64,000 bases of DNA from Acidithiobacillus sp. HP-2. GTDB lineage: Bacteria; Pseudomonadota; Gammaproteobacteria; Acidithiobacillales; Acidithiobacillaceae. The notes under the pieces are model-generated. The model saw only the letters and a program-made list of their open reading frames with translations, was not told where the DNA came from and did not search any database. The position numbers were made by a program, and so were the translations under genes. The stretch spans positions 62,001-126,000 of the forward strand of contig NZ_JACKZA010000009.1 in NCBI RefSeq assembly GCF_015100155.1, given 5' to 3'. Of the stretch, positions 2,558 through 61,086 are shown in pieces (the first letter of the stretch is position 1; each line of letters begins with the position of its first letter).

Positions 2558-3724
2558 TCAGAGCGCGTCACCGATTTTATGGAACATCCGCGATAACCAG
2601 CCGGCTTTCTCAGCAGAAACCATGCTGACCACCGGGACTGTTTTAAGTGTTTTACCGTCAAGCTGGAAAACCAATGCTCCCACGACCGTACCTTTTTTCA
2701 GGGGGAGCTGCAAATTCGGATTGATTTCGACAACGCGCTGCAAATCCGAAAAATGTCCCTTGGGTACGGTGACGGTGACTTTTTGGGTGACACCTACGGG
2801 AACATGCATGGGAGAGAAGTCGTTCCGCGTGATTTTACCAACCTGCTGGCCTGACTGATAAACCGGATGGTTCACAAAAAAACGGTAACCGTAGTCCAAC
2901 AGTGCTTCTACGGCATTGGTACTGCCAGCCCAGTTGGGTCCACCCATCACTACGGCGATCAGGCGCCGACCACTGCGTTGAGCCGTAGCGTCAATGCAAT
3001 AGCCGGAGGCATCTGTCAGTCCGGTTTTCAGGCCATCCACGCTGGGATCCCGAAACAGCACGGGATTCCAGCTCCGTTGGGTGATTTTGTTGTAGGTATA
3101 GGATTTTTGTTTCGTAATTTGAATGACTTGAGGGTATTGTTGAATCAGCGTCCGGGATAGCTGCGCTACATCCAGAGCAGTGGTATACAGGTTGTCATCC
3201 GGTAAGCCATCAACATTATTGTAATGGGTATCATGCAGTCCCAGTTGTGCTGCCGTTTCATTCATCAGGGTTACAAATCCGGACTGGCTTCCTGCCACGG
3301 TTTCGGCCAATGCCACGGCGGCATCGTTGCCCGAATCAATCAGTAGCCCATGTAGGAGTTGGTCAATATTGACCGCCAGACCGGGCTGGATGAACATGCT
3401 GGAACCACCAGTTTTCCAGGCTGTGTTGGATATTTGAATGTTTTCATTGAGATTGAGGGTGCCATTGTGGATGGCCTGATAGGTCAGATAGGCCGTCATC
3501 AGCTTGGTGAGACTGGCCGGTGCGCGGCGCAGGTTTTCACTTTTTGCCGCAATAATCTGGCCCGTGTCATAGTCCATCAGCACATAGCTGACGATGGACG
3601 GCAGGGCAGGTGCTGGAGGCGTGGGGAGCCTTGGGGTCGGCACGACGGCAAAGGCGGTGCTGGCAAAAAGCAGCCCGAAAAAAACAAGAAAAACTTTACT
3701 CATCAGCGATGGGCGGAAAATCAT
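2558..3724 (-). CDS. dacA: D-alanyl-D-alanine carboxypeptidase (PBP5/6 family)
   Basis: A penicillin-binding protein that trims the terminal D-alanine from peptidoglycan pentapeptides in the periplasm. The 388-residue product starts with a signal peptide (hydrophobic 8-26, cleavage likely after TAFA). All three active-site motifs are present: S71-L-T-K74, S131-G-N133 and K233-T-G235. The C-terminal beta domain follows, ending in an amphipathic helix typical of membrane-attached DacA/DacC. The ATG at 3724 has a GAGG 5 bp upstream; an internal ATG at 3703 is an alternative. It heads dacA-ybeD-lipB-lipA. Confidence 0.94.
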   Translation of the reverse strand: MIFRPSLMSKVFLVFFGLLFASTAFAVVPTPRLPTPPAPALPSIVSYVLMDYDTGQIIAAKSENLRRAPASLTKLMTAYLTYQAIHNGTLNLNENIQISNTAWKTGGSSMFIQPGLAVNIDQLLHGLLIDSGNDAAVALAETVAGSQSGFVTLMNETAAQLGLHDTHYNNVDGLPDDNLYTTALDVAQLSRTLIQQYPQVIQITKQKSYTYNKITQRSWNPVLFRDPSVDGLKTGLTDASGYCIDATAQRSGRRLIAVVMGGPNWAGSTNAVEALLDYGYRFFVNHPVYQSGQQVGKITRNDFSPMHVPVGVTQKVTVTVPKGHFSDLQRVVEINPNLQLPLKKGTVVGALVFQLDGKTLKTVPVVSMVSAEKAGWLSRMFHKIGDAL

Positions 3725-3842
3725 CAGGGCCTCAATACGTAGTCTTTAATTGGAGTGTAATCTTGGAGATATCCGAAGAATTATAATGATGTCCGCCAAG
3801 AAAGCTATGTCTGTTTGCTCATTGTCCTGCAACCGGTGCTGG

Positions 3843-3992
3843 GCCGGGAAGCTTTACCGCGACTTTGTCCCGCGCCGTTGTTGTTCTTGGCGAAAGCCCG
3901 CGCCCGTCAGGAGAGCTGTCTGAGCCCACAGGGCGAGGAGGATGAGCCTTGGAACAACAGGCAAGGGACGTTGGAGCAAAAAGCTTCCCGGC
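3843..3992. repeat. Dispersed repeat with inverted ends, copy 1 (about 150 bp)
   Basis: This stretch between rodA and dacA starts with GCCGGGAAGCTT and ends with AAGCTTCCCGGC, so its ends form inverted repeats. A second copy in opposite orientation lies at 59731-59894. The copies share the termini, a CGCGACTTTG motif next to one end, CGCCGTTGTTGTTC, GTCAGGAGAGCTGTCTGAG and CCTTGGAACAACAGGCAAGG. This copy lacks about 20 bp that in copy 2 complete an internal CTCTCCTGAC arm. No coding frame of interest crosses it. It resembles a MITE or REP/BOX-type element; no transposase is nearby. Confidence 0.85.
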
Positions 3993-4010
3993 CCACCACC
4001 GTTTGCAGTG

Positions 4011-5105
4011 CTATTCATGGGTTCGTGGATGTGCGTGGACTGACATCAGAATCCCCAATCCGATCATAAATGTCAGCATGGCCGTACCGCCATAGCTGAT
4101 GAGGGGCAGTGGCACTCCGACTACAGGTAAAATCCCAGTGGTCATCCCCATGTTGATAAAAATATACAGAAAAAATGTCAGACTCAGGGTGCCGGCAATC
4201 AAGCGGCCAAAGGCATCCCGACTTTCAAAGGCGATGACCAGTCCGCGCAGGACAATCAGGAGGTAAGTGGCGATTAGAATGAGCACGCCAAAAAGACCGA
4301 ATTCTTCGGCAAAACCGGCAAAAACAAAATCTGTTTGTGCTTCGGGCAAAAAGTCGAGATTCACCTGGGTACCGTTAAACCAGCCCTTTCCCCAAAACCC
4401 CCCGGAGCCAACAGCAATCATGCTCTGAATGATGTGATATCCCGCTCCCAAAGGGTCGCGTTGAGGGTCAAGGAAAGTCAGAATGCGCTCCTTTTGATAA
4501 CCGTGCAGAAAATGCCACATGACGGGTCCACTGACTGCGACAATGATGAGTAGTCCAATAAACCAGCGCCGTCGCACGCCAGCCAGCCACATCATGAAAA
4601 TGCCAGCGGCACCAATTTGGGCGGCGGTACCCAGATCTGGCTCCTTGGCAATCAACAGAAAGGGGATGGCGATCAGTATCAATCCGGTAATTGCGGCACG
4701 CCAATGGCGCACGTTTTCCTGCTGGGAGTAGTAGTAGGCCATCAGTAGCGGTAAAGCCAGTTTCATGAGTTCCGAGGGCTGAAAGGTGATGGGTCCGGCA
4801 CCTAACCAGCGTCTGGCTCCGAGGCTGGTTTTGCCAGCGACCAGGGTGAGTGCCAGGAGTATAACGCCGATGCCATAAAGTGCCGGGGCCCAGGCGCGAA
4901 TGCGTTCTGGCGGGGTATTGGCAATGGTGATCAGCACAATAAAGCCGATAGCAAAGTGGAATAACTGGGCGAAAACCACGCGAAGACTTTCCTGGCTGCC
5001 GCTGTAAAGTACGGCCAAACTGATGCCCATTAAAATGACAACACCGGTCAACAGTGCTGGATCCAGTTTTTGCAATGGACGGAACAGGCGTTGTGACCGG
5101 TTCAT
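4011..5105 (-). CDS. rodA: Peptidoglycan glycosyltransferase RodA (SEDS family)
   Basis: Integral-membrane SEDS polymerase that elongates glycan strands during lateral wall growth together with PBP2 and the MreBCD cytoskeleton. From the ATG at 5105 the product is 364 residues, normal for RodA. It has about ten membrane segments and the SEDS signatures W-L-G-A-G-P-I-T-F-Q-P-S-E-L (about 117-130) and the C-terminal P-L-P-L-I-S-Y-G-G-T. The start was chosen because it overlaps the mreD stop by 4 bp (ATGA); the frame is open further upstream, but that would run far into mreD. The usual mrdA/PBP2 gene is not between mreD and rodA here. Confidence 0.94.
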   Translation of the reverse strand: MNRSQRLFRPLQKLDPALLTGVVILMGISLAVLYSGSQESLRVVFAQLFHFAIGFIVLITIANTPPERIRAWAPALYGIGVILLALTLVAGKTSLGARRWLGAGPITFQPSELMKLALPLLMAYYYSQQENVRHWRAAITGLILIAIPFLLIAKEPDLGTAAQIGAAGIFMMWLAGVRRRWFIGLLIIVAVSGPVMWHFLHGYQKERILTFLDPQRDPLGAGYHIIQSMIAVGSGGFWGKGWFNGTQVNLDFLPEAQTDFVFAGFAEEFGLFGVLILIATYLLIVLRGLVIAFESRDAFGRLIAGTLSLTFFLYIFINMGMTTGILPVVGVPLPLISYGGTAMLTFMIGLGILMSVHAHPRTHE

Positions 5106-5575
5106 GATGATGCCTTCAAATGATGGCGCAGATAATCCAGCAAATAGGTAAACAGGGGCCATAGTAAGGCCCCCATCAACGGGCTGAGGAGCAGGCTGAA
5201 ATGCCAGCTCACTGGCGCGGACCATAGTTGCCAGGACCAGACGATCAGTCGATGAGCGAACAGCAGCATGAAAATGAAAACCAATTGTTCCCAAACAGAT
5301 AGATGGCGCACCCTGCCCAGGCCATTGACCAGCGCATAAACCATGAGAACACTGGCAACGGCCTGGCCACCGGGCACATCACCCATCATCATATCCTGAA
5401 GTAATCCTATGAGCCATACCACCGTATAGCTGAGTTCGGAGCCACTACGGATCGACCAGTAAAGCAGAAGCATGGCTACAAAATCCGGATGGATCATGCC
5501 ATAAACAGGGCCAGAGGGGAGTGTTTCCAGGGCCATGGCCAGGGAAAAGGCGATCACTATGGCGATAGCATTCAT
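5102..5575 (-). CDS. mreD: Rod shape-determining protein MreD
   Basis: A 157-residue, very hydrophobic protein with about five predicted membrane segments, the usual size and profile of MreD, which belongs to the elongasome with MreC and RodA. Identity rests on hydropathy, length and its position directly between mreC and rodA; sequence conservation in this family is low. It overlaps mreC by 4 bp and rodA by 4 bp, so the three genes are probably translationally coupled. Confidence 0.9.
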   Translation of the reverse strand: MNAIAIVIAFSLAMALETLPSGPVYGMIHPDFVAMLLLYWSIRSGSELSYTVVWLIGLLQDMMMGDVPGGQAVASVLMVYALVNGLGRVRHLSVWEQLVFIFMLLFAHRLIVWSWQLWSAPVSWHFSLLLSPLMGALLWPLFTYLLDYLRHHLKASS

Positions 5576-56033: not shown

Positions 56034-57284
56034 TCAAAAAAATTCGAGGTGCAGACGCAACATGCCGACCAGAGCATCCGGGTAATAACCGGAAGGATGC
56101 TGGATGTATTGCAAATCCGGCTGAATATTGATGTGCTCTGTTACTTTTGCCAGATAAGTGAGTTCATAGCTGGTTTCAGCGGGATGGATGCTGGCTGGTT
56201 CCACATCCAGCCCCGCAGCGACGGCCTCAGGGCGTAGCCAGGCTCTGGCCATACCAATGGAAATGCTGTCGTCCGGGCGGTCTGCTAAGGGATGCCCGAG
56301 CCGCAAGCCCACGCCCAGGTACCAGGGGACGGGATTGAAGTTTTGCGGCGCTGCCCCGGCCTGCAGGAATGCGCCAAGCTGACGTTCATCCGGCAGTGTC
56401 CAGTTTCCTTCGACGATGCCATAGGCACCGGCCGTGCTGGGTGATAAGCCATAAAGTTCGGGGTTGGCCTGCTGGTAGCGCCAGGCACCGATTTTTATTT
56501 CATATTGGCCATATTCATCGGTATTGTCCTCCATATCTTCGTCGGCTTTGTGACCCCAATGCAGTGCGCCTTCCCAGAGAGCCATGTAGCCTCGCTCAAA
56601 CGCAGAGGTCTGGTGCTGTGGATCACCCTGAAAAATCGCTAATTTGTTACTCACATTTTGCGTGTGTGTGCTGACCAGCAGGCCGAGACCAGAATAGGGA
56701 TAGGTAGCAGTACCGGGAACATTGACCGTGATGGTGGGCGACATGCCAAAAGAGCTGTTGATCAATTGCAGGGCATTGGCGGCAACATCAAAATAATAGT
56801 TGACGTCCATATAACCGACCCGGGTGTTGAGCCAGTCATTCCAGCGTTGCCGATAGGCGGCATCGTAAAAACGGACGGCATTGGGCGCCCAGATATTACT
56901 GGCAGTCTGAATGTCACCACTATAGTTTTGCTGAATGCCACTACTGTAAATGCCCATCAGGGAGAGGGTGAATTTGCCTCCCTTCCAGAGCCCGGCTTTG
57001 TCGGTGTCATATTCAGCCCCGATTTGTCCGACAATATTGCCTTCACTGCCCTGCTTGATTCCTCCCGAAAAATTGGAAAAAATCTCGCTGTCCAGATGTC
57101 CCGCCCAGGATAGCCCGTTGCCGATGTGGGTATAAGCAGGTAAGTACTTGGCAGAAAGTCCGGGGGTGTTGGGTATGGAGGATTCCGGGTTGCTGTCAGC
57201 AGCATCAGCGCAACCGATTGCAGGACAGCCCAGAAAAGACGCCGCACAAAGTGCAGTCGCCACGGAAAAAGTCAGGCGAGACAT
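56034..57284 (-). CDS. OprB-type porin at the head of the feo operon (FeoP-like)
   Basis: A 416-residue outer-membrane protein with a signal peptide (1-28) and carbohydrate-selective-porin (OprB) features: H-L-D-S-E-I-F-S-N, G-Q-I-G-A-E-Y-D-T-D, a string of amphipathic strands and a terminal F-F. In A. ferrooxidans a porin gene called feoP heads feoPABC, so it is likely a route for ferrous iron through the outer membrane. It directly precedes feoA, and the promoter with a Fur-like site is just upstream. Confidence 0.85.
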   Translation of the reverse strand: MSRLTFSVATALCAASFLGCPAIGCADAADSNPESSIPNTPGLSAKYLPAYTHIGNGLSWAGHLDSEIFSNFSGGIKQGSEGNIVGQIGAEYDTDKAGLWKGGKFTLSLMGIYSSGIQQNYSGDIQTASNIWAPNAVRFYDAAYRQRWNDWLNTRVGYMDVNYYFDVAANALQLINSSFGMSPTITVNVPGTATYPYSGLGLLVSTHTQNVSNKLAIFQGDPQHQTSAFERGYMALWEGALHWGHKADEDMEDNTDEYGQYEIKIGAWRYQQANPELYGLSPSTAGAYGIVEGNWTLPDERQLGAFLQAGAAPQNFNPVPWYLGVGLRLGHPLADRPDDSISIGMARAWLRPEAVAAGLDVEPASIHPAETSYELTYLAKVTEHINIQPDLQYIQHPSGYYPDALVGMLRLHLEFF

Positions 57285-57315
57285 TGCAGATACGCTCCGT
57301 TATTAGAATATTAGC

Positions 57316-57334
57316 GATAATGATTCTTAATATT
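57316..57334 (-). promoter_or_regulatory. Fur-box-like operator of the feo operon
   Basis: GATAATGATTCTTAATATT matches the 19-bp Fur consensus at 14 positions, including the entire left half. It overlaps the -10 element of the promoter at 57330-57357, so iron-loaded Fur would repress the operon. Confidence 0.72.
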
Positions 57335-57357
57335 ATATAGACTGTTGGCAATGTCAA
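57330..57357 (-). promoter_or_regulatory. Sigma-70 promoter of the porin-feoABC operon
   Basis: On the minus strand TTGACA is followed after 16 bp by TAATAT. The -35 hexamer is perfect. Transcription should start near 57323, about 39 bases before the porin ATG. Confidence 0.7.
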
Positions 57358-57385: not shown

Positions 57386-57444
57386 CTGGAGCCGATGCCG
57401 GGCCAAAGTCGCGGCAAAGCTTCCCGGCCCGGCATCGGCTCCAG
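57386..57444. repeat. 59-bp palindrome containing the end of the dispersed repeat
   Basis: Two perfect 19-bp arms (57386-57404 and 57426-57444, CTGGAGCCGATGCCGGGCC and its complement) enclose 21 bp. The inner part (GGGCC-AAAGTCGCGGCAAAG-CTTCCCGGCCC, here split) matches one end of the dispersed repeat found at 3843-3992 and 59731-59894. There is no T-run on either side. It may be a solo end of that element or a REP-like hairpin between feo and the thiol-disulfide gene. Confidence 0.8.
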
Positions 57445-58396: not shown

Positions 58397-58520
58397 GTTG
58401 GGTTCAGGGGGTAGCCTCGAAGTTTCTCTTTCAACTTTATGAGAAATGGCAATGTCTCTGCATAATCAGCCCTTGGGCAGATTACGCAGCGGCGATTCCC
58501 AGGTGATTCTGGAGATAAGA

Positions 58521-59621
58521 ATGAAGAAGAAGCATCGCTGGCAGATTGCTTTGGCGGTATGTTTGTGTACAGGAGGTGTTGCTGTGGCTCAGGCCGCGCC
58601 ACATCATGTTAAGACGGCAGCTCATCGAGTGGATGCGCATCGGTATCATCGGGAGACCTCTCCCAGGCATCCCCATTCGAGACATTATCATGCCGTCAAA
58701 TCGGTTCGAAAAGTTTCGCACAGGCATGAGGCTTTTCCAGTCGAAGCAGCCGATTATACGGCTTTGACGCCAACGGCCCTGCAGTTGATGCATCTTTCCC
58801 CGGTAGAATTTGCGGGAGTAGGTGCAGCACCTCAGCCGGTAACCAATTACCAATTTCCTGTTCATTCGTTCCCGGATACATCCGCCAGTTCTGTCACCAG
58901 CCCCGACTTTGTTGATCGATCCCTGGTGCTGGTGAAAACCGGTCTTGCAGCCAGCACGATGAATACAGATTCTCCGGCCAAGCCGGCGGCAGCCCCGGTG
59001 GATGCAGTGGTTGCCACCTCTGCGCCGGATCAGTCGCATCTGCGCATTGCCCTGGAAATGTTTGCCAGTCAGGCCTACCACTGGGCCCGCCATCCGCTGC
59101 AGGCTTTGGAGTCCAGCGGCGATGCCGTCAGCGGACCTCAGGCTGCTGCTGAATTGGCAGACGCTATTGCCCAACAACAGGCAGATCCAAACAATACCGG
59201 GAGTAATGCCGCTGCGTCCTCGGGTGATTCCTGGCTTTCGCCCCGGGCCATGGTGGTTTCGGCCTTGAAGTTTATTGGTGCCCCCTATCGCTGGGGCGGG
59301 ATGAGTCCGGCTTCAGGTTTTGATTGCAGTGGCTTCGTGAAATACATACTGGCCAAATTTGACATTCAGGTGCCGCGCACTTCTTATGCCCAGGCTGCGG
59401 AGTTGCACAAGGTGTCCCGGGAAAATCTCAAACCCGGCGATCTGGTGTTTTTTGATACCATGCATCGGGCTTATTCTCACGTAGGTATATACATCGGTCA
59501 CCAGCGTTTCGTCAGCGCCCAGACACCCAGCACTGGTGTCCAGGTTGGCAGCCTGAATGATCCTTATTGGGCAGCGCATTATGACGGCGCACGCAGCTTG
59601 CCGGTAGCCAACTCTTATTAA
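58521..59621 (+). CDS. NlpC/P60 cell-wall endopeptidase
   Basis: A 366-residue exported hydrolase from the ATG at 58521 (GGAG 6 bp upstream). It has a signal peptide (1-26), a histidine-rich segment (about 28-70, with many H and R), a low-complexity middle and the C-terminal NlpC/P60 domain (about 240-360). The catalytic cysteine is in F-D-C-S-G-F-V, the histidine in Y-S-H-V-G-I-Y-I-G, preceded by Y-R-W-G-G. It cleaves peptidoglycan stem peptides. The histidine-rich region may bind metal. A longer frame starts at 58446, but without a ribosome-binding site. Confidence 0.92.
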   Translation: MKKKHRWQIALAVCLCTGGVAVAQAAPHHVKTAAHRVDAHRYHRETSPRHPHSRHYHAVKSVRKVSHRHEAFPVEAADYTALTPTALQLMHLSPVEFAGVGAAPQPVTNYQFPVHSFPDTSASSVTSPDFVDRSLVLVKTGLAASTMNTDSPAKPAAAPVDAVVATSAPDQSHLRIALEMFASQAYHWARHPLQALESSGDAVSGPQAAAELADAIAQQQADPNNTGSNAAASSGDSWLSPRAMVVSALKFIGAPYRWGGMSPASGFDCSGFVKYILAKFDIQVPRTSYAQAAELHKVSRENLKPGDLVFFDTMHRAYSHVGIYIGHQRFVSAQTPSTGVQVGSLNDPYWAAHYDGARSLPVANSY

Positions 59622-59681: not shown

Positions 59682-59730
59682 GTGCTTTGTTGATGCTTAA
59701 CTTTACGGTTCATCGAAAAGGCGACCGCGA

Positions 59731-59894
59731 GCCGGGAAGCTTTTTGCTCCAACGTCCCTTGCCTGTTGTTCCAAGGCTTATCCTGCTGTCAGGAGAGAAC
59801 TCGCCCTATGGGCTCAGACAGCTCTCCTGACAGTCGCAGGGTTTCACCAGGAACAACAACGGCGCGGGCCAAAGTCGCGGCAAAGCTTCCCGGC
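59731..59894. repeat. Dispersed repeat with inverted ends, copy 2 (about 164 bp)
   Basis: The ends are GCCGGGAAGCTT and AAGCTTCCCGGC. It is inverted relative to copy 1 at 3843-3992 and highly similar to it. Internally GTCAGGAGAG and CTCTCCTGAC form a further hairpin that copy 1 has lost. It lies between convergent genes, after the bidirectional terminator. It contains no gene. Confidence 0.88.
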
Positions 59895-59916
59895 CCACGG
59901 CCGCCTTTCTTATCAT

Positions 59917-61086
59917 TCAGAGTTTGCCGTAGGAGTGCAGCCCACCCAGGAACAAGTCGACGCCGATGAAACAGAAGGTAACGACGATCAGGCTGATAAA
60001 TGCCCACCAGGCCATGGGGCGTCCTTCCCAGTTGCGCTGACTGCGGGCGTGCAGAAAGCCGGCATAATTCAGCCAGACAATCAGAGCCCAGGTTTCCTTG
60101 GGGTCCCAGGACCAGAATCCCCCCCAGGCCTTGGCAGCCCAGACTGCACCGAGAATGGTGCCGACCGTAAAAAACAAAAATCCGAAGGCGATGGTTCCGG
60201 AAAAGGTCTTGTCCAGTAATTCCAGGCTGGGCAGGCGATCGCGCAGGAAGTTGCCGCTGCTGATGGCACGTTCTTTCAGCAAATAGGCCAAACCGGCCAT
60301 GGCTGAAATATAAAAATTGGCGTAGGCAATGAACATGGAAGGTACATGGATTTTCATCCAGAAGCTCTGCAATGCCGGAATCAGTGGTTGAATACGGTTC
60401 AAATGGTAAGCAGCACCCACCCAGATCAGAAAAATATCAGCGACCAGCACCAAAGGCAGAACAAAAGCCCCCAATCCCCGGTTTTCTGTGCGATTTTCGT
60501 GAAACAAGTAAAACAGGATGGTGGTCGCACAAAATAACACCATCACATCATAAATATTGCTGACCGGAATATGTCCCCAGGATGGGTGGCCGATATAGGT
60601 TTCTCGCCAGCGAATGGCCAGACCGGCAAAGCCCAGAACAACGGCAACCCAGGCCAGACGATGCCCCCAGTTACCGGCATTCTGGTTACCGGCAAACAGA
60701 TACAAATAGTAGCCGGCGGCACTGAGCAAAATTGCGCCACTCATCCAGTAAAACATCGCATTGCTGTGAAAAAAGTAGCGTATTGCGAGGCTGTCGTGCG
60801 TCGTGAAACCCCATTGATAAAGCCCTACCCCGGTGCCGGCAATAGCCATGACGACCAGAAACAACACCCGGAAAGCAGGCCATTTCAGACCAAACCACAT
60901 AAGGCCGACATACCACATACCGAGGATGATGAATTGCCACATCCAGAATTCAGCACGAAATATGGCCCAGGTGGCAACGGCGCCGACGCTCAGAAAAAAG
61001 GCCCAGGCAGTACGCTGGGATTTGGAGTTTTCTATGGATGTGGGCTCTTTGAGTGAAAAATAGGGTGATTGGAGTTGCGCTGACAT
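59917..61086 (-). CDS. ccsA: Cytochrome c biogenesis protein, CcsA/ResC type (system II)
   Basis: A 389-residue membrane protein with about eight segments. The haem-handling tryptophan motif is W-G-G-F-W-S-W-D-P-K-E-T (about 310-321), flanked by conserved histidines (I-H-V-P-S-M-F near 250 and H-A-R near 335). It would move and ligate haem to apocytochromes such as SoxA and SoxX. Its ResB/Ccs1 partner is not in the window. AACAGGAG lies 10 bp before the ATG, and a possible attenuator lies upstream. Confidence 0.9.
   Translation of the reverse strand: MSAQLQSPYFSLKEPTSIENSKSQRTAWAFFLSVGAVATWAIFRAEFWMWQFIILGMWYVGLMWFGLKWPAFRVLFLVVMAIAGTGVGLYQWGFTTHDSLAIRYFFHSNAMFYWMSGAILLSAAGYYLYLFAGNQNAGNWGHRLAWVAVVLGFAGLAIRWRETYIGHPSWGHIPVSNIYDVMVLFCATTILFYLFHENRTENRGLGAFVLPLVLVADIFLIWVGAAYHLNRIQPLIPALQSFWMKIHVPSMFIAYANFYISAMAGLAYLLKERAISSGNFLRDRLPSLELLDKTFSGTIAFGFLFFTVGTILGAVWAAKAWGGFWSWDPKETWALIVWLNYAGFLHARSQRNWEGRPMAWWAFISLIVVTFCFIGVDLFLGGLHSYGKL

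Follow-up and report, generated by a model that had tools for sequence, protein, structure and literature searches.

The window, by which we mean the whole stretch of 64,000 nucleotides analysed here, contains three copies of a dispersed repeat. The sequence-only reading of this DNA had placed all of them outside genes, and each does lie between predicted genes. Two copies are long and the third is a short derivative. These copies, their neighbouring genes and the parts of copy 2 are positioned as follows.

2558-3724, minus strand: D-alanyl-D-alanine carboxypeptidase gene, neighbour of copy 1.
3826-4009, minus strand: copy 1, whose ends lie about 15 bp outside the termini read earlier and whose core is in reverse orientation.
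4011-5294, minus strand: FtsW/RodA gene, the other neighbour of copy 1.
57386-57444, plus strand: short derivative, in which two perfectly matched 19-bp arms enclose part of the right end of the core.
58446-59621, plus strand: NlpC/P60 gene, neighbour of copy 2.
59714-59910, plus strand: copy 2, full length, between convergent genes.
59714-59740, plus strand: left outer arm of copy 2, locus-specific and largely complementary to the right arm.
59741-59884, plus strand: core of copy 2, of some 145 bp; its sequence is conserved across copies and is itself an imperfect hairpin.
59885-59910, plus strand: right outer arm of copy 2.
59917-61086, minus strand: cytochrome c assembly gene, the other neighbour of copy 2.

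The sequence GCCGGGAAGCTT has exactly five mismatch-free occurrences in the window (3843 plus, 3981 minus, 57417 minus, 59731 plus and 59883 minus). Copies 1 and 2 lie in opposite orientation and share termini, as had been read. These termini had been taken for the ends of the element. They actually lie within the arms, and the ends of the family, CCT and AGG, are found about 15 bp farther out. The ends of copy 2 are worn and were placed by comparison with other copies. The loss described in the internal hairpin of copy 1 amounts to 14 nt (net) of one stem strand, and the third fragment is real, with its perfect arms and its piece of the core. As a side observation, a putative Fur-box-like stretch, GATAATGATTCTTAATATTAT, lies at 57310-57345, before an OprB-type porin gene (56034-57284).

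Copies of the family have outer arms of some 27 bp on either side of a conserved core, which measures about 145 bp. The core runs from TTTTTGC to GC(N)GCAAA and forms an imperfect hairpin on its own, and the whole element folds into one long hairpin (z -13.2 for copy L021, z -8.1 for copy 2 of the window). In copies with well-kept ends, the two outer ends are CCT and AGG. Judged from the length of about 200 bp and from the open reading frames, no coding capacity is evident. No Rfam family matched in the window at the gathering score or in three loci up to an E-value of 1, and a known Rfam RNA family was rejected on these grounds.

According to our in silico analysis, the host genome (3.2 Mb, 48 contigs) carries 28 long copies of this imperfect palindrome of about 200 bp. 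Two more copies are split by an IS110-family insertion (one of these is deduced from a pair of contig ends), and a count by eye gave about 14 short derivatives. The genome search returned 45 matches at E≤1, a few of which are the element against its own reverse strand and some of which are two pieces of one copy; the best 30 range from 1e-93 to 2e-33. Strong matches (E below 1e-30) were obtained in 9 of the 57 genomes searched, namely the host, six more of the 17 Acidithiobacillus genomes and the two from a single sister genus. Three of the 57 gave only marginal matches, near E 1e-3, and 45 gave none. The further copies that the sequence-only reading had proposed to look for are therefore present in the host and in related genomes, and their number and their occurrence in other genomes rule out chance or a local duplication. 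Altogether, 143 distinct copies were collected, 116 of them full.

A scan of named genomes (257 Gb) with an 18-base pattern, for which our own arithmetic predicts about 7 chance hits, returned at least 95 stretches. At least 90 of these have the core, all of them under Acidithiobacillus titles. The other five among the matches listed have no core and come from Bifidobacterium, Streptomyces, Lentzea, a Clostridia MAG and a Nitrospirae MAG. Neither the plasmid nor the phage collection matched the element at the sensitivity used, and a plasmid or phage origin was rejected for this reason. We found no account of this repeat in the open-access literature, including the accessible portions of PMC10214660 and PMC5000751, which proves no absence from print.

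The ends and the flanks were compared in 108 of the 116 full copies, the rest having too short flanks. Recognisable ends are present in 49 of these 108 long copies, and 59 have no recognisable end pair. A 5-bp flank repeat with at most one mismatch was found in 21 of the 49 copies, whereas 200 swaps gave 5.8 such copies on average and never more than 12, and the identity of the 5-bp flanks is 58% compared to 41.5% in swaps. Repeats of 3, 4, 6, 7 and 8 bp gave no signal in the flanks. The target-site duplication is thus exactly 5 bp, and neither copy 1 nor copy 2 of the window keeps it intact. The element is absent at L004, L021 and L023 in genome G010, at L023 in G003 and at L010 in G004, though some of these absences may be deletions. 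A single copy of the target is present at the element-free L023 (G003 and G010) and L021 (G010). Together, duplications and empty sites bound the whole element, arms included.

ISEcp1, a member of the IS1380 family, has CCT ends and produces a 5-bp duplication. These two features, also seen here, suggested the IS1380 family, and a transposase search was therefore done with PF13701. Matches were found in 9 of the 13 genomes searched, 8 of them above the cut-off. Genome G010 has matches only below the cut-off, G003 and G020 have only partial ones, and no match was found in G001, G016, G005 and G009. Against the IS1380 model of NCBIfam (NF033539), the transposase gives an E-value of 7e-43 and 146.7 of 180 bits, which is below the curated cut-off; the same protein exceeds the Pfam cut-off of PF13701. 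A transposase with similar inverted ends, of the kind that the sequence-only reading had proposed to look for, is found in the genus, and its transposons also have 5-bp duplications. Copies of 1621 bp in G011 and G008 end in CCTAAA(AAA/TTC)(A/G)GCAGTTA, and all six IS1380 copies examined are flanked by duplications (TTTAT, ATAAT, ATCAT, TTGAT, TTCAG and ATGAT). The left end of the G004 copy, CCTAAAAACAGCAGTT, is one base away from the element end CCTAAAAACGGCAGTT. Taking both ends of three transposons, 13-15 of 16 bases are like the end of the better-kept copies of the repeat. Of the best IS1380 copy in the host genome, only the right end is seen.

Within the 64-kb window, the best agreement with the IS1380-like end stays below 13 of 16 bases. 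The window copies miss this end, their arms being diverged, and the link therefore rests on better-kept copies elsewhere in the genome. The element shares CCT...AGG ends and a 5-bp duplication with IS1380-family insertion sequences but has no transposase and an interior that is not clearly related to theirs. Since this interior matches the IS1380 transposons over no more than 11 bases, we filed the repeat as IS1380-ended rather than as a deletion derivative of IS1380. Ends of the form CCTAAAAACAGCAGTT were also noticed on other sequences, at L050 (G012) and in the right part of L236 (G004), which may represent a second MITE family belonging to this transposon. Regarding the distribution of the transposon, the accessible part of PMC10214660 reports IS1380 in three of the strains surveyed and terms it peculiar to A. 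caldus, and that of PMC5000751 lists it for three of nine A. thiooxidans strains.

The repeat had been suggested from its sequence to be either a MITE moved by a transposase encoded elsewhere or a REP-type element. Copy number, occurrence in other genomes, element-free sites, the 5-bp duplication and the IS1380-like ends support the former, and from these ends we infer that an IS1380 transposase moves the element in trans. We consider it probable, at roughly 70%, that this is a non-autonomous MITE family with IS1380-type ends (CCTAAAAACGGCAGTT... in better-kept copies), mobilised in trans and persisting as a long hairpin subject to template switching. REP or REPIN elements, which are moved by a Y1 (RAYT) transposase, are likewise extragenic, palindromic and present in many copies, and Y1_Tnp genes were found in all five genomes searched. 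Such an origin is highly improbable given the 5-bp duplication and the IS1380-type ends. Moreover, 10 of the 14 Y1_Tnp matches of the host fall in frames of 147-166 aa, several of them alike, which are presumably IS200-like. REP and REPIN elements carry a GTAG or CGTC tag and have an associated RAYT. The tag also figures in the title of PMC3733652. By eye, neither GTAG nor CGTC was seen at the CCT/AGG ends, and no link between the Y1_Tnp genes present and the element was seen. One such gene (G000:C1:71974-72330) adjoins copy L006. A chromosome rearrangement had been considered at this copy and was rejected, as the adjacent IS200-like gene explains the split flanks.

We then turned to the genomic position of the copies, which could be assessed for 88 of the 143, the others lying in short loci or having no gene on one side. 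Among these 88, which include orthologs and are not independent, 49 lie between convergent genes, 32 between tandem genes and 7 between divergent genes. The background at the same loci is 63 convergent gaps out of 236 of 60 bp or more, a count that includes element-bearing gaps; the genes, for copies and background alike, come from our own simple caller. Nearly all convergent copies (48/49) have a 3' end within 100 bp, and in 27 of the 32 tandem cases no more than 100 bp separate the core from the upstream gene's 3' end. Only 2 of the 88 copies are inside a predicted gene, and 10 overlap a gene at all.

This position, right behind stop codons and between convergent genes, would also suit a structured RNA or a terminator, in which the stem would be kept paired by selection acting on the transcript, for termination or for stability of the 3' end, and the element would be retained for that function. 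The very stable fold (z -13.2 and -8.1) agrees with this, and by eye many copies have a T-run 3' of the stem, although several lack it. A separate terminator-like hairpin already precedes copy 2, however, and no Rfam family matches. The behaviour of the arms bears on the same question from both sides.

The arms of a copy are matched to each other. In 109 of the 116 full copies (the flanks of the rest being too short), the median arm is 27 long and has 26 positions matched with its own partner, compared to 15 when arms are swapped between copies. At least 20 positions are matched in 96% of own pairs and in 31% of swapped pairs. Covariation was analyzed on 47 copies hand-picked from 117 (50 were listed, from which one IS-split copy and two with deletions were omitted). 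It reaches 0.271 over the whole structure, against 0.086 when shuffled and at most 0.070 when slid. In the arm helix, 27 of the 35 pairs have changed on both sides, four are invariant and four depart only by unpaired cells. Column pair 22/186, for example, is CG in 18 copies, GC in 16, AU in 7 and UA in 6 of the 47, with no G.U and no unpaired case. The core helices vary little, and the outer pairs at columns 41-43 of the structure based on L021 fail in 28-37 of the 47 copies.

The same pairing is kept between orthologs. We compared 624 base pairs of the arms from 26 loci, each represented by the one pair of orthologs with most arm changes, a choice that inflates the rate; three of 29 loci, in which more than 60% of pairs differ, were omitted. 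Both sides have changed and are still paired in 48 of these base pairs (about 4.5 expected), one side has changed in 70, and both have changed and are unpaired in 9. Such strong covariation speaks for an RNA. Yet a stem kept for the sake of RNA should tolerate G.U pairs. Arm mismatches are G.T in 39 cases and A.C in 37 (102 of 117 copies, the rest having more than 6 mismatches). On the sense strand of tandem loci they number 6 and 13, respectively, the strand being set by locus and maybe wrong at a few two-copy loci. As G.T shows no excess over A.C, upkeep at the DNA level is favoured over RNA pairing. G-C and C-G are also exchanged without intermediates at some pairs, including 22/186. With the orientation of the core being random, as described below, no strand-specific RNA is conserved, and we regard a retained RNA or terminator function as rather unlikely to account for the element.

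Orthologous copies differ in the orientation of their core. This was analyzed on 117 copies from nine genomes, with within-genome duplicates removed and genomes other than the host sampled in part (8 copies for G004; for the named genomes, copies among the matches listed). Of the 29 orthologous loci compared, which are not all that exist, 20 show the core in opposite orientation between species, as do 28 of 52 pairs; its orientation is as good as random. At 11 of the 20 inverted loci, the arms are the best match, in at least one direction, among the sampled copies of that genome, and the insertion there is therefore most likely shared and not repeated. At the other 9, the arms of other copies match equally or better, and where the arms are of the common type, some inverted pairs could stem from separate insertions into one site. 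The window illustrates these differences. The core of copy 1 is opposite in genome G010, and G001 and G004 keep only short remnants. Copy 2 has the same orientation in G004 and is a remnant in G003. At the site of the short derivative, G004 and G003 both have the full element in one orientation, and G010 has it turned the other way. G001 has a short form there whose inside is the reverse complement of that of the window, one base excepted; two parallel deletions could account for this pair as an alternative to inversion.

The cores themselves are hardly closer to their orthologs than to other copies. For the 51 of 52 pairs that could be ranked, the fraction of other copies that are equally or more similar has a median of 0.44 in the same orientation (24 pairs) and 0.38 in inverted orthologs (27 pairs). 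Host copies with divergent arms differ by 48% in their arms and by 8% in their cores, compared to 19% and 6% for orthologs of such loci. Within a genome, cores differ by 4.2% in G003, where they are more alike than orthologs, and by 12.1% in G001, where they are less alike. Cores look homogenised or constrained across loci and arms only within a locus, with evidence for concerted change that is mixed between genomes. Exchange between copies may explain the likeness of cores across loci, and mosaic cores seen by eye, such as that of L133, fit such exchange.

These data raise the question of whether the arms are old hairpins, the tips of which are repeatedly entered by a separate mobile core in either orientation. 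Cores that are alike between arms that differ, orthologous cores hardly closer than others (0.44 and 0.38), the random orientation and bare hairpins at the orthologous sites L109, L110, L115 and L116 would all agree with it. By eye, however, these bare hairpins are legible as deletions between direct repeats of 3-6 bp. The target duplications and empty sites enclose the arms together with the core, and at L009 the arm bases next to the core (AAGGC) are common to orthologs with opposite core orientation. Independent entry of the core is consequently improbable in our view. It is also unlikely, if slightly less so, that the element is made of two units, with locus-bound arms that copy each other and cores exchanged genome-wide in either orientation by an undescribed recombination at hairpin tips. 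If this were true, cores would evolve in concert across loci and arms only within a locus.

We favour the mobilised MITE with template switching, for which we propose the following scheme. An IS1380-family transposase would act in trans on the MITE, in the past or at present, and insertion would produce an AT-rich 5-bp target duplication, mostly just 3' of stop codons. The polymerase may then switch templates at the hairpin and copy one arm onto the other, giving paired arms, and the same switching could turn the spacer and so invert the core. Recombination between copies would exchange cores and make them alike, and short forms may result when the DNA between short direct repeats at the base of the stem is deleted, as suggested by junctions read by eye. 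The position 3' of genes could combine target preference and selection against harm, with a possible terminator effect. Among the processes considered, template switching would best explain the paired arms together with core inversion. The accessible parts of PMC8604942 and PMC8794818 describe arm homogenisation and spacer inversion by template switching at inverted repeats, a likeness to our case on both counts. The scale differs: about 150 bp would be turned here, compared to 2-5 bp (yeast) or loops of at most 7-8 nt in what is accessible of these two papers. A further difference is that the effect recurs at most of the sampled loci of one family.

Among known systems, the Correia elements (CREE) of Neisseria are nearest in style, with inverted ends, a conserved core, no protein, a target duplication and length variants. 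CREE duplicate TA. The repeat described here has a 5-bp duplication and CCT/AGG ends, and its membership in CREE was rejected. In the accessible parts of PMC2649163 and PMC3454330, CREE are most commonly 153-157 or 104-108 bp and are found at a chromosomal rearrangement point; inversion in place is attributed to Elbeyioglu 2017 in the part of PMC10969869 available to us. Because Correia inversion and a role in rearrangement are on record, inversion as such is not new. As far as these texts describe them, CREE have a few end variants, in contrast to the 5-bp duplication, IS1380-type ends, locus-specific co-varying arms and position behind genes observed here. The repeat differs from Correia elements in its link to IS1380, in arms that co-vary and are specific to each locus, and in the saturated inversion. 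It is a new family of MITEs whose hairpin dynamics are unusually fast. If our reading is right, template switching at long hairpins, which is usually observed as single events, would be recorded many times in parallel and with phylogenetic replication by about 30 copies per genome in several close species. It would also be a warning that selfish DNA can develop stem covariation, a feature that is commonly accepted as proving a functional RNA.

The core is itself a target for insertion. An IS110-family element or its remnants occupy the same core position at L085, L255 (G004), L256 and L260 (both G001), that is, as two copies in the host and as remnants in G004 and G001. The two host copies are L085 (G000:C22:145839-147387) and the one shared between contig ends (G000:C4:1-404 with C25:1-539). 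The insertion site is GTTCTAAGGC-like and lies in the left half of the core, and the transposase, of 406 aa, scores above the cut-off of NF033542. Other IS110 copies lie elsewhere, mostly before GA, and G001 has about fifteen remnants (35-50 bp) of one IS110 end. An extragenic palindrome as a fixed landing site is also known for REP-targeting insertion sequences (ISPpu9 and ISPa11, in the accessible part of PMC1525189) and, in the material available on it, for IS621. REP targets measure 20-40 bp, whereas the target here is the core of a 200 bp MITE. The nearest likeness in a MITE is QMITE2 of Coxiella, which is hit by IS1111 as a target according to the accessible part of PMC10969869; QMITE2 is described there with a GTAG palindrome, unlike the ends of our element, which have no such tag. 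As a fixed landing site for an IS110 element, which is of the RNA-guided kind, the MITE offers a natural test of target choice.

A separate observation was made in genome G010, where a single element (L136, G010:C166:33766-34313) is bordered by the left flank of host copy L001 and, on its opposite side, by the right flank of host copy L002. Recombination between two copies, and with it a rearrangement, is a possible origin of this arrangement.
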